Origin: Halobacillus sp. Marseille-Q1614
GTDB taxonomy: Bacteria; Bacillota; Bacilli; Bacillales; Halobacillaceae
Reading direction: 5' to 3'
Assembly: GCF_902809865.1 (NCBI RefSeq)
Contig: NZ_CADDWH010000001.1
Coordinates: 2,728,001 to 2,792,000, forward strand
Length of the DNA stretch: 64,000 nt
Made by a program: the position numbers and the translations under genes. Positions 25,007 through 29,163 of the stretch are shown one piece after another (position 1 is the stretch's first letter; every line of letters begins with the position of its first letter). Below the pieces are notes generated by a model. It saw only the letters and a program-made list of their open reading frames with translations, did not search any database and was not told the DNA's origin.

Positions 25007-25642
25007 TTAAAGAAATAATCCATCACCAAAACCAATCGTATAAATATAGTATAATCCATACCCTATACTGAGTATAGAAGTCGCACCTATGAGTGTACGG
25101 TTGATTTTCAGGCTGCGGCTCCCAATTTGGTAAGGAATGCTGAGAAGCAGTGTAAATGCAAGCATCCCAAGAATTGTACCCATTCCAAATATACTAATAT
25201 AAATAAAGGCTTCTTGAGCTGAATCAACCATGGACAGTGCGAGTAGTATCATAGCTGCACTGCCTGCCAATCCATGAATCTGTCCGATTGCCATTGATTT
25301 TACAAACAGCTTCTTGCTTGATTCACCTTTGACTTTTCCTGATTTAATATGAACGTTACCAGAATTCCAAAGAGGCGAAAATCCAAGGTAGATTAGCATA
25401 AATCCAACACCCATCTCAAAAGACATCGCCCATGTATCCGGGATGCTGGACTTAGTAAGGGTCATTATAAGGAAGATCCCTAATAGTGTTAACGTGTGGC
25501 CAATTCCCCAGAAGAATCCTAAAAAGCTTGAACGCCAAAACTTTTTATGCTTGCCAACAATAGTTGATACCGCTATCACATGATCGGGTTCCAATGCATG
25601 CTTGATTCCAAGTAAAAAGCCAATGGCCAGTATTTCTATCAT
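25007..25642 (-). CDS. Nickel/cobalt-type permease (UreH/NicO-like) in the lar operon
   Basis: A 211-residue membrane protein with about six helices. The first helix has GIKHALEPDHVIAVST, the HX4DH signature of NiCoT/UreH-type metal permeases, and GIGHTLTLLGIFL follows. Its ATG overlaps the larE stop (ATGA), so it is translationally coupled. In an operon building the nickel-pincer nucleotide cofactor, Ni2+ uptake is the natural role; that is inference from context and family. Confidence 0.8.
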   Translation of the reverse strand: MIEILAIGFLLGIKHALEPDHVIAVSTIVGKHKKFWRSSFLGFFWGIGHTLTLLGIFLIMTLTKSSIPDTWAMSFEMGVGFMLIYLGFSPLWNSGNVHIKSGKVKGESSKKLFVKSMAIGQIHGLAGSAAMILLALSMVDSAQEAFIYISIFGMGTILGMLAFTLLLSIPYQIGSRSLKINRTLIGATSILSIGYGLYYIYTIGFGDGLFL

Positions 25643-26475
25643 GATAATAGCGCTCCTCTTTCCAGCATATTATTCATGCTCCCACTTTTATATCCTTTCA
25701 TATCCAGCGTGACATATTTAAAATGAAGGCTTTTCAGAAAGGTGTCGATTTCCTCATGGTGCTCCAGCAAGCGCATCATATCTGAGGGCTCTACTTCGAT
25801 CCTGGCAATCTCATTATGTACACGTACCCTGACCTGTCTGATCTCCAGGCCTTTTATAAACTGTTCCGCTTCATCAACCTTTTTCAGCTTCTCAATCGTA
25901 ATTCTTTCACCATAGGCAATTCTTGAAGACAAGCAGGCAAGGGAAGGTTTGTCCCAATTATCGATGCCCAGCTCTTTAGCACGTATGCGAATATCATCCT
26001 TTGACATGTCCGCTTCAGCTAAAGGCCCTCTGACATTATTATCGACCGCCGCCTGAACTCCTGGTCGGTGATCGCCCAAATCATCTTTGATTAATCCAAA
26101 CGTCAAATTCTTAAATTCCTTTTCCTGAAGCAGCGGGGACAAACGCTCAAATAGTCCTTTTTTACAGAAGTAGCAGCGGTTTGCATCATTTTCTGCATAG
26201 CCCGGTATAGCTAACTCAGACATTTCAATGATTTGGTGAGGAGCTTCTAATGCTGCCGCCAGCCTTTTTGTTTCTTTTAATTCCGAAGGAGGAAAAGATT
26301 CTGAATCAGCCGTAACTGCTAATACATTTTCTTCACCTAGCGTATCTAGTGCAACTTTAAGCAAATAGGTGCTATCAACCCCGCCTGAGAATGCAATGAT
26401 CACACGCTCCATCTGCAGAAGAATTTCTTTCAGCTTCTTTTCCTTTTCTAGAGCTCGATTTGTGTCCATACCCAA
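25639..26475 (-). CDS. larE: LarE, ATP-dependent sulfur insertase of nickel-pincer-nucleotide synthesis
   Basis: A 278-residue PP-loop enzyme. SGGVDS at residues 30-35 is the pyrophosphatase loop, with LAVTADSESFPPSEL just after. CYFCK supplies Cys101 and Cys104, and SLACLSSR gives Cys181. LarE adds sulfur to the pyridinium dicarboxylate precursor, either sacrificially from its own Cys or, in three-cysteine homologues, through an Fe-S cluster. Three well-placed cysteines here favour the cluster type, which is inference. The gene lies between larC1 and the permease in one operon. Confidence 0.9.
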   Translation of the reverse strand: MGMDTNRALEKEKKLKEILLQMERVIIAFSGGVDSTYLLKVALDTLGEENVLAVTADSESFPPSELKETKRLAAALEAPHQIIEMSELAIPGYAENDANRCYFCKKGLFERLSPLLQEKEFKNLTFGLIKDDLGDHRPGVQAAVDNNVRGPLAEADMSKDDIRIRAKELGIDNWDKPSLACLSSRIAYGERITIEKLKKVDEAEQFIKGLEIRQVRVRVHNEIARIEVEPSDMMRLLEHHEEIDTFLKSLHFKYVTLDMKGYKSGSMNNMLERGALLS

Positions 26476-26488
26476 GTCACTCCTTCCC

Positions 26489-27211
26489 TTATGATTCTCC
26501 TAAAACAAACCTTACAACATTCGGGTGATTTTCAAAGTCTTTCGTACCCGCACCGTATCCAATTTTGTTAACCTTCATCCCCGGAATAGTTCCATATTCA
26601 GTCGTTAATGTACGAATAATGGCTGCCCCAGTTGGAGTGGTCAGTTCTCCTTGCACCTCTGTATGATGCAAAGGGATATCTTTCAGAATTTCAAGAGTAG
26701 CAGGAGCTGGTACAGGATACAATCCATGCGCCATATGAATATACCCATTTCCGGCAGCAACAGGAGTGCTGACAACCTTGTCAATGTCCAATTGATGATA
26801 AGCGATAGCTGCGCCTATAATGTCAATCATAGAATCAACTCCCCCTACTTCATGGAAATGGACTTTCTCCAGTGTAGAGTTATGGATTTTTGCTTCTGCG
26901 ATTGCGATCGTTTCGAACATAGACAGGGCTGTTAGTTTTTCTTCCTCTTCAAGATCAGATTGCTCGATGGCTTGTTTAATATCCGTATAATGACGGTGCG
27001 AATGTTTTTCTTCTTCTGTATCAATAATTAAGTGTGAACTAGAAAGACCTTTTTTGACTACTTTTTCTACAGATAGGGAAAAATCTTCGTTTACGACTGA
27101 ATGAAGTTTATCCGATATGACGGATAAATCAGCCCCTATTTCTGTAAAAGCTGCCAAGGTCATATCTCCGGCTATTCCCGATATACCGCAGTCGATAAAT
27201 AAGGTTCTCAT
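26489..27211 (-). CDS. larC1: LarC1, N-terminal domain of the nickel insertase as a separate gene
   Basis: A 240-residue protein covering only the first domain of LarC: LFIDCGISGIAGDM at the N-terminus, a His-rich segment KHSHRHY, then EKVHFHEVGGVDSMIDIIG and GELTTPTGAAI. It stops after FENHPNVVRFVLGES, where the full-length protein would continue into the second domain. LarC is the CTP-dependent enzyme that inserts nickel to form the NPN cofactor. AAGGAG before the ATG. The remaining domain is at 28040-28498 on the other strand, so no ribosomal frameshift can join them. Confidence 0.88.
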   Translation of the reverse strand: MRTLFIDCGISGIAGDMTLAAFTEIGADLSVISDKLHSVVNEDFSLSVEKVVKKGLSSSHLIIDTEEEKHSHRHYTDIKQAIEQSDLEEEEKLTALSMFETIAIAEAKIHNSTLEKVHFHEVGGVDSMIDIIGAAIAYHQLDIDKVVSTPVAAGNGYIHMAHGLYPVPAPATLEILKDIPLHHTEVQGELTTPTGAAIIRTLTTEYGTIPGMKVNKIGYGAGTKDFENHPNVVRFVLGES

Positions 27212-27240
27212 ATTGTGGATCTCCTTATAGTTTATTTTTA

Positions 27241-27984
27241 TTACACTCTCAGCATAAGTGATGCGGCATAGCCTGCTCCAAAACCATTATCAATATTGAC
27301 AACGGTTACACCTGAAGCACAAGTGTTTAACATACTTAAAAGTGATGTAATTCCATTCAGATGGGTGCCATATCCGACACTGGTCGGAACAGCAATTAAA
27401 GGAACCGATACCAGCCCGCCGACAACACTTGGCAGCGCTCCCTCCATTCCTGCAACTACAATCAAGACCTGGCATGATTTGATTTCCTCCAGTTGGGCAA
27501 ACAGCCGGTGAATTCCTGCCACTCCAATATCATAGAAGCTTTGGCATACATGCCCCATGGCCTCGATGGTAACCTCAGCTTCCCTGGCTACGGGAATATC
27601 AGAAGTGCCCGCACAAATAACCCCTATTTTTTTAGTTTCATTCTTCATAACATATGTATCCGGTTTATAAAGCAGTGTTCTTCCGGCTGGGTCGTAGCTT
27701 ACTTCTGGCAGAAGATCACAAACCTCTTTTGCTGCTAGATCTGTTACTCTTGTTGCCAGAACCGTCTGATTCTGAGAAGCAAGGTGGTTAAAAATCCCTG
27801 CTATCTGCTCAGGTGTCTTGTTCGCCCCGAAAATAACTTCAGGAAAACCTTGCCTGAATTCACGGGCGTCATCGACTTTAGCAAAACCATAATCGGTGAA
27901 GCCTTTCAGCCTTTCTTCCGCTTCCTCAATTGATAGAACCCCTTCTTGAAATTGTGTTAGAATGTGTTTAGTATATGAGTCCAT
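27241..27984 (-). CDS. larB: LarB, P2CMN-forming carboxylase/hydrolase of NPN cofactor synthesis
   Basis: A 247-residue protein with a variable N-terminal helical part and a PurE-like core starting at KIGVICAGTSDIPVAREAEVT. SCQVLIVVAGMEGALPSVVGGLVSVPLIAVPTSVGYG follows, a pattern shared with AIR carboxylases. LarB carboxylates the pyridinium ring of nicotinic acid adenine dinucleotide and cleaves off AMP, the first NPN step. First gene of the minus-strand operon larB-larC1-larE-permease, 55 bases from the divergent larC2, so both probably share a regulatory region. Confidence 0.9.
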   Translation of the reverse strand: MDSYTKHILTQFQEGVLSIEEAEERLKGFTDYGFAKVDDAREFRQGFPEVIFGANKTPEQIAGIFNHLASQNQTVLATRVTDLAAKEVCDLLPEVSYDPAGRTLLYKPDTYVMKNETKKIGVICAGTSDIPVAREAEVTIEAMGHVCQSFYDIGVAGIHRLFAQLEEIKSCQVLIVVAGMEGALPSVVGGLVSVPLIAVPTSVGYGTHLNGITSLLSMLNTCASGVTVVNIDNGFGAGYAASLMLRV

Positions 27985-28039
27985 TTGTCTCTACCTTTCT
28001 ATGAAATTACCCTTTGGACAGAGCAGGAAGGAGCTAATC

Positions 28040-28498
28040 ATGCAGCACCGGTATGAACATACAGATCATGAGATGATCAAAATGGAAGTAAATTTGGATG
28101 ATATACCTGGTGAATGGCTCGGTCATGTCATGACTCTGCTGTTAGAGGCAGGTGCAAACGACGTGTTTTACATACCGATTTACATGAAAAAAAACCGCCC
28201 AGGCACCATGCTGCAGGTATTATGTCCAGAAACACGGGCTGAGGAATTGATGAATATTATTTTCCAGGAAACAACCACTCTGGGAGTAAGGTATTACCCC
28301 CTTTCCGTCAAACGCCTTGGTAGACAATTCAAAGAAGTTGAGACCCCTTGGGGATTTGTCACCGTAAAAGAAGGCTTATTGAATGATAAAGTGGTCCAGC
28401 GAGCTCCTGAATACAGCAGCTGCAAGAAAATTGCAGATAAATATCACATTCCCCTAAAGAAAGTATATCAGGAAGTTTGGAAAGTAATAAGTAGCTGA
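28040..28498 (+). CDS. larC2: LarC2, C-terminal domain of nickel insertase encoded divergently
   Basis: A 152-residue protein matching the second LarC domain: EVNLDDIPGEWLGHVMTLLLEAGANDVFYIPIYMKKNRP at the start, then IIFQETTTLGVRYYP and KVVQRAPEYSSCKKIAD. These are the conserved parts downstream of the LarC1 region in fused homologues. ATG 28040 follows GGAAGGAG; an upstream in-frame TTG/ATG series overlaps the larB promoter side and lacks a ribosome site. Divergent from larB. The two LarC halves must assemble as separate chains. Confidence 0.88.
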   Translation: MQHRYEHTDHEMIKMEVNLDDIPGEWLGHVMTLLLEAGANDVFYIPIYMKKNRPGTMLQVLCPETRAEELMNIIFQETTTLGVRYYPLSVKRLGRQFKEVETPWGFVTVKEGLLNDKVVQRAPEYSSCKKIADKYHIPLKKVYQEVWKVISS

Positions 28499-28581: not shown

Positions 28582-28836
28582 TCATTTAGTTAATGCATAA
28601 GGTGTCTGTTCCCCTTTTAGAACCTGAACAATATTAAAAGCTGCTTTTTTTCTCAGTTCTACCATAGCTTCCTCTGAATACCAAGCACTGTGCGGTGTGA
28701 TGATAACATTATCCATTTCCAGAAGCTCACTGTCGATCCTAACAGGCTCTTCTTCCATTACATCTAATGCGGCTCCGGCAATTCTTCCTTTTTTCAGTGC
28801 GTCCGTGAGGGCAGCTTCATCAATAATGGGTCCAAC
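28582..28836 (-). pseudogene. C-terminal remnant of a D-2-hydroxyacid dehydrogenase
   Basis: The minus strand reads, without interruption, from GPIIDEAALTDALKKGR through GAALDVMEEEP and NVIITPHSAWYSEEAM to a TGA at 28582-28584. This is the last third of an NAD-dependent D-isomer-specific 2-hydroxyacid dehydrogenase, including the substrate-domain His of TPHSAW. Upstream of 28836 the expected NTARG segment is replaced by unrelated hydrophobic codons, and no start codon or ribosome site is found. The N-terminal two thirds are missing. Position beside NPN-cofactor genes suggests a lost lactate-linked enzyme (inference). Confidence 0.8.
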
Positions 28837-29163
28837 AAGTAAAAGCAGGACAGTGATTTTAGTACACCTCTTTATTTTTTATTTAATGATAAAACAACAA
28901 ATTAGCTTGATTTAAGTCAACCTCCTAAAGATTTCAAATTACTCACTCCTTACAACTGGTATAAGCATAATTAACTATTTTCAATTAAGTTATTAGAAAG
29001 GTCATTTTTAACTTAATTTTAAAAAGCAGACCATTTTCTCTCGTGAAAAATGGTCTGCTTTATCGTTTTCTTATAATTTTTCATATCTTATTTGATTGGT
29101 TTGTATTAAAGATTTAGCATGCTTTAATTTATTTAGTTGTCTAATCTCCTCCAGCAGTTCATT
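28837..29163. other. Intergenic region with one hairpin
   Basis: No supported gene. A strong stem-loop lies at 29023-29061. The minus strand between 29163 and 29077 carries a short open run (ELLEEIRQLNKLKHAK...) without a start; see rejected items. Confidence 0.5.
29023..29061. terminator. Intrinsic terminator
   Basis: AAAGCAGACCATTTT and AAAATGGTCTGCTTT arms with a short loop and A/T tracts on both sides, about 100 bases after the VanW-like gene on the minus strand. Confidence 0.75.

Follow-up and report, generated by a model that had tools for sequence, protein, structure and literature searches.

The nickel insertase LarC is treated as a single protein in the literature that our search reached. 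In Moorella thermoacetica and Synechocystis it is indeed one chain (PF01969), encoded in the neighbourhood of larB and larE. In Lactiplantibacillus plantarum LarC is reported to be made as a fusion by a frameshift; in this species and in Lacticaseibacillus paracasei the coding sequence is found in two frames split at the domain boundary, and their 58-base overlap with an A10 run agrees with such a mechanism. A third arrangement is that of Anaerobutyricum, where larC1 and larC2 are two named genes whose products are said, in the available part of the source, to be detected in the proteome, and whose consecutive locus tags make them adjacent (PMC7702098). According to the accessible part of another paper, LarC installs nickel with CTP, the M. 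thermoacetica enzyme cytidylylates its substrate, and about 15% of genomes contain larB, larE and larC without larA (PMC11796402).

The locus analysed here is part of a window of 64,000 nucleotides of the genome of Halobacillus sp. Marseille-Q1614, and all positions without a locus code refer to this whole stretch. It contains the same two halves as the single-chain LarC, with the same domain order and the same larB and larE neighbours, but in the form of two genes on opposite strands (Table 1). With the lactobacillar genes it shares the split at the domain boundary and with Anaerobutyricum the presence of two genes; in contrast to the former, however, its halves cannot be fused and its LarC2 belongs to another tree group, and unlike the latter they are not adjacent.

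Table 1. Features of the lar locus and its surroundings (positions in the window)
Feature	Position	Strand	Characteristics
NicO-like nickel transporter	25007..25642	-	PF03824 22.9 bits, under the 27.7 cut-off; overlaps the end of larE
larE, sulfur insertion step	25639..26475	-	NCBIfam TIGR00268 1.8e-104; CXXC-C cysteines in translation
larC1, N-terminal half of nickel insertase LarC	26489..27211	-	240 aa; PF01969 1-234, NCBIfam nickel_LarC1
larB, first cofactor-pathway step	27241..27984	-	247 aa; NCBIfam LarB 3.8e-86
larB-larC2 divergent spacer	27985..28039	.	55 bases
larC2, C-terminal half of LarC	28040..28498	+	152 aa; PF01969 239-375, NCBIfam nickel_LarC2, PDB 6bwo
2-hydroxyacid dehydrogenase C-terminal remnant	28585..28833	-	84% over 82 codons to G005 L127:8902-9861

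The initial annotation had described larC1 and larC2 as complete, non-overlapping and divergent genes with larB between them, and both the open reading frames and the PF01969 ranges bear this out. The two halves score above the curated cut-offs of Pfam and of NCBIfam, where LarC1 and LarC2 are separate models: LarC1 matches PF01969 with 3.6e-85 (286.8 bits against a cut-off of 22.1) and nickel_LarC1 with 3.8e-65 (218.7 against 90), while LarC2 matches PF01969 with 3.3e-47 (161.8 against 22.1) and nickel_LarC2 with 1.4e-43 (147.7 against 50). Since the first PF01969 match ends at position 234 of the 375 in the profile and the second resumes at 239, the split coincides with the domain boundary. 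LarC2 also matches PDB entry 6bwo (1.1e-31), and the corresponding L. plantarum half was solved alone, with a CTP-type ligand (6bwo/6bwq/6bwr). The longest larC2 frame begins from the ATG at 27962 (178 aa), but the start originally assigned, which gives the 152-residue product, is favoured by the ribosome site AGGAAGGAG and by the alignment of six orthologues; the 55-base gap reported between larB and larC2 was likewise found as described. With larB and larE adjoining larC1 and a LarA user present in the genome, the halves are in the company expected of LarC. All six LarC1 proteins of the divergent cassettes compared have one extra residue in the N-terminal motif (residues 7-17 in the window protein), D[CS]GISGIAGD versus the usual DCFSGISGD, and a similar insertion occurs in the LarC1 of genome G164.

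The data point to a two-gene LarC of old origin, the halves of which probably act in trans and probably as a two-chain enzyme. The initial annotation had held that the enzyme must be a two-chain complex unless the halves have separate roles; such a complex is the likeliest reading, but not a necessary one. No report of separated larC1 and larC2 was found in a literature search that lacked the founding LarC papers and most subscription papers, which is not a proof that the arrangement is unreported. The existence of a lineage with separate genes suggests that LarC can work without being fused, and separate, often unlinked halves offer a natural way to assign the nickel and the CTP chemistry to each of them. 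For annotators and those who rebuild pathways it also means that larC2 may be far away from larC1 or on the other strand.

The lactobacillar precedent, in which larC also occupies two frames, there overlapping and with a run of A residues, could suggest fusion by a ribosomal frameshift. The initial annotation had called it physically impossible here, and rightly so: larC1 and larC2 lie on opposite strands with larB between them, and fusion in the window by frameshift or readthrough is thus ruled out. In relatives with same-strand adjacent pairs the open frames overlap by at least 6 bases in 20 of 36 cases, so the geometry permits shift fusion there; a run of at least seven A within the last 48 bases of larC1, the count of slippery sites having taken in A runs alone, is present in only three of the 36 (A9 in G202 and G274, A7 in G061). 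The A9 runs of G202 and G274 stand at the end of larC1 in the -1 frame, like the lactobacillar A10. Together with the position of these two genomes among the fused ones in the LarC2 tree, they align shift-type genes with the fused form, the free-standing group being a different solution.

The divergent order is genuine and not an artefact. A second full-length larC elsewhere in the genome, named in the initial annotation as one finding that would overturn its reading, was searched for genome-wide and is absent: no further PF01969 match was found in the 3.98 Mb genome beyond larC1 and larC2, and there is no open frame with both halves that would make a single-chain LarC. The other such finding, a misjoined inversion at 27.2-28.0 kb, has a negligible probability. 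The gene order of the window appears again in G005, G040, G142, G144 and G319, among which G005, G142 and G319 each have contigs of more than 4 Mb, and also in five further named genomes. The latter came from searching named genomes with the LarC2 alignment, which gave 511 confirmed relatives; the 80 best of them were taken. The seven best-ranked of these 80 (70-91% identity: Halobacillus massiliensis, Bacillus sp. CECT 9360, Bacillus sp. J33, Cytobacillus sp. NCCP-133, C. oceanisediminis 13_TX, C. firmus AMY 5.1.1 and Bacillus massiliglaciei) are all divergent; by larC2 DNA comparison two of the seven are the G005 and G144 loci and the rest are distinct. The other 73 comprise 56 adjacent pairs, seven with a more distant larC1 on the strand of larC2, and ten with no larC1 inside the fetched flank. 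The divergent cassette (larC2 / larB-larC1-larE) is therefore known from 11 distinct genomes, that of the window included, and the search for such genomes that had been proposed with the initial annotation thus yielded ten others.

The split is not unusual in the sampled order, where split LarC is the commoner state (66 of 92 LarC2 loci). LarC is present in 12 of the 44 genomes of the family, of which four have only the fused form (G018, G021, G039, G042) and seven only the split form, while G043 contains a copy of each kind. Within the sampled order it occurs in 91 of 397 genomes, and the 92 LarC2 loci consist of 26 fused genes (among them that of G350, whose fusion partner is a degenerate LarC1-like domain), 34 that immediately follow larC1 at no more than 250 bases, and 32 that are separated from it. 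In nine of the separated cases the halves are on different contigs, each pair being at least about 11 kb apart; in seven larC2 is more than 5 kb downstream, in six 250-5000 bases downstream and in four upstream on the same strand, while four are divergent with larB between and two convergent. A sample of the phylum contained LarC2 in 206 of 378 genomes, and among the 150 matches listed 23 are in frames no longer than 220 aa, some of which may have been truncated at contig ends, which indicates that outside the order split LarC is a minority.

Several unusual forms were met among these loci. Extra larC1 genes occur in larE-larB-larC1 sets without their own larC2 in G294 (L124), G094 (L126) and G248 (L125). 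In G350 (L123:4474-6482) LarC1 is intact, and the neighbouring LarC2 carries a fused LarC1-like domain (hmmsearch 3.6e-43, hhalign 99.9%) from which conserved motifs have been lost. In G241 (L086:7119-8162) and G092 (L142:10284-11291) LarC2 carries an N-terminal extension of about 170-200 residues, in which hhalign found no LarC1 likeness (probability at most 0.3%); a model of one such extension was poor (mean pLDDT 44.9).

The split appears to be old, with nearly all free-standing LarC2 of the sampled order in one group. The careful tree of LarC2, built from 97 rows without L122 and L123 and with one fused gene present twice, has a branch with support of 99/87, its bootstrap not fully settled, that separates 69 free-standing rows, the window protein among them, from the 26 fused rows together with G202 and G274. 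In a tree extended by the two lactobacillar sequences and a distant outgroup, the same 70 free-standing sequences made up the largest group free of fused rows. The LarC1 tree is less tidy: the distribution of fused and split forms needs at least four changes, and the separated LarC1 of G338 sits among the fused ones. Other genomes of the order with a free-standing LarC2 share the LarC2 tree group of the window, but have other gene orders, with larC1 adjacent or distant, and the divergent cassette is one sub-group. Its six rows form a single group in both trees (support 100 for LarC1, 99/99 for LarC2). The hosts span four coded families (f1, f27, f29, f47). Over the stretches fetched for comparison, the left flank of the window is common only to G005; elsewhere the block with more than 50% identity consists of the lar genes, plus nicO in G144 (70%), and other matches do not exceed 46%. 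The cassette has probably been kept or passed on as a unit, transfer of the unit and loss in other lines being indistinguishable here, and larC1 and larC2 appear to have become separated in several ways, of which the divergent cassette is one.

To the right of larC2 the window differs from its relatives. In G005, G040, G142, G144 and G319 the gene faces the end of an opposite-strand catabolic cluster with genes for a 2-hydroxyacid dehydrogenase, a DHDPS-family aldolase, a galactarate/altronate dehydratase-like protein and an IclR regulator, and with a LarA homologue and TRAP-like transporter genes on the far side (the Pfam names are from the G005 and G144 proteins, the others being named by likeness of the first residues). 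The LarA homologue of G005 belongs to nickel-pincer isomerase group 22 of NCBIfam. The window aligns with G005 to 28833 and resumes at 29163, the VanW gene; about 17.9 kb of G005 (in L127:8902-18001 and L233), including the LarA homologue of this sugar-acid-type cluster, are absent, and all that is left of the dehydrogenase gene is a fragment of 82 codons at the edge of the lost cluster. G005 and G040 have two LarA copies and the window genome one (G000:C1:873387; NCBIfam nickel-dependent lactate racemase, 541.8 bits against a cut-off of 460), located 1.9 Mb from the cassette beside a second larE. The cassette thus seems to have persisted after its neighbouring LarA homologue was lost.

These losses would also be expected if the cassette were a decaying leftover of the sugar-acid cluster, in which case its split would say little about a working enzyme. 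We consider this very unlikely: the lactate racemase gene is still in the genome, relatives that retain the cluster have the same split, and all four lar genes have a low omega against G005 (larC1 0.032, larC2 0.121, larB 0.081, larE 0.070; several more distant pairs gave no value, synonymous change being saturated). To judge from these values, both larC1 and larC2 are under purifying selection. Conserved columns, defined as those with at least 95% of one residue among 101 LarC1 and 97 LarC2 homologues, are also kept, with 52 of 54 retained in LarC1 and 23 of 23 in LarC2.

Under the preferred reading, that of a two-gene LarC acting in trans, LarC would catalyse the CTP-dependent nickel insertion with which synthesis of the nickel-pincer nucleotide (NPN) cofactor ends. 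The two divergent transcripts would yield LarC1 and LarC2, which would most likely form a hetero-oligomer, LarC2 activating the substrate with CTP and LarC1 helping to place the nickel, and the cofactor would presumably serve the remote lactate racemase. The split itself, its recurrence, the selection on both halves and the impossibility of frameshift fusion are established above, while complex formation, this division of labour and the use of the cofactor by the racemase are what we infer. Several further points favour the reading as a whole. LarC2 is separated from larC1 in 32 of 92 loci, yet LarA is present in 90 of the 91 larC-bearing genomes of the order; three genomes have an extra larC1 without its own larC2; and, besides the L. 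plantarum LarC2 solved alone, a modelled fused homologue consists of two well-formed domains (pLDDT 87.6). The mutual placement of these domains is unsure (pTM 0.61), and the confident LarC1-LarC2 interface hoped for in the initial annotation was not obtained in this single-chain model. This counts against the reading, as do the untidy LarC1 tree and the absence here of the catabolic cluster and the LarA homologue found next to the cassette in relatives. The correlation of LarC1 and LarC2 distances points the same way, being only moderate (r 0.617, falling to 0.248 with LarB held constant) and below that of LarC1 with its neighbour LarB (0.853).

The separability of the domains in the model, the ability of LarC2 to fold alone (6bwo) and the frequent location of larC2 beside larB instead of larC1 (G363, G087, G036, G037) would suit a sequential action in which no lasting enzyme is formed, free LarC2 using CTP on the substrate and LarC1 inserting nickel separately. 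We regard this as unlikely, because the enzyme is fused in 26 of 92 loci and because the cytidylylated intermediate on one LarC, as presented in the available part of PMC11796402, fits a shared site better. As a further possibility, of fairly low probability, LarC2 might be a shared, diffusible CTP-using subunit with its own promoter that serves any LarC1 (with LarB and LarE), the LarC1:LarC2 ratio controlling nickel insertion; the two larC1 with one larC2 in G294 and G094 fit this, as does the intact LarC1 of G350 beside a LarC2 with a degenerate LarC1-like domain.

The divergent spacers measure 55-71 bases in six genomes. Most of the conservation is accounted for by the ribosome sites and the opening codons of the two flanking genes, larB and larC2, with little beyond. 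The sole promoter-like site for larC2 (27946-27974, 9/12) is inside larB, one such site being found against 0.5 expected by chance. It is possible that one signal serves both transcripts, as the initial annotation had proposed.

The two larE genes of the genome differ in type. According to the accessible part of PMC9283937, an iron-sulfur cluster motif, CXXC-C, occurs in most LarE proteins but not in that of L. plantarum. The copy in the cassette has the CXXC-C pattern of cluster-bearing LarE, and the copy beside larA (L145:9644-10507) lacks CXXC and in this resembles the sacrificial type of L. plantarum.
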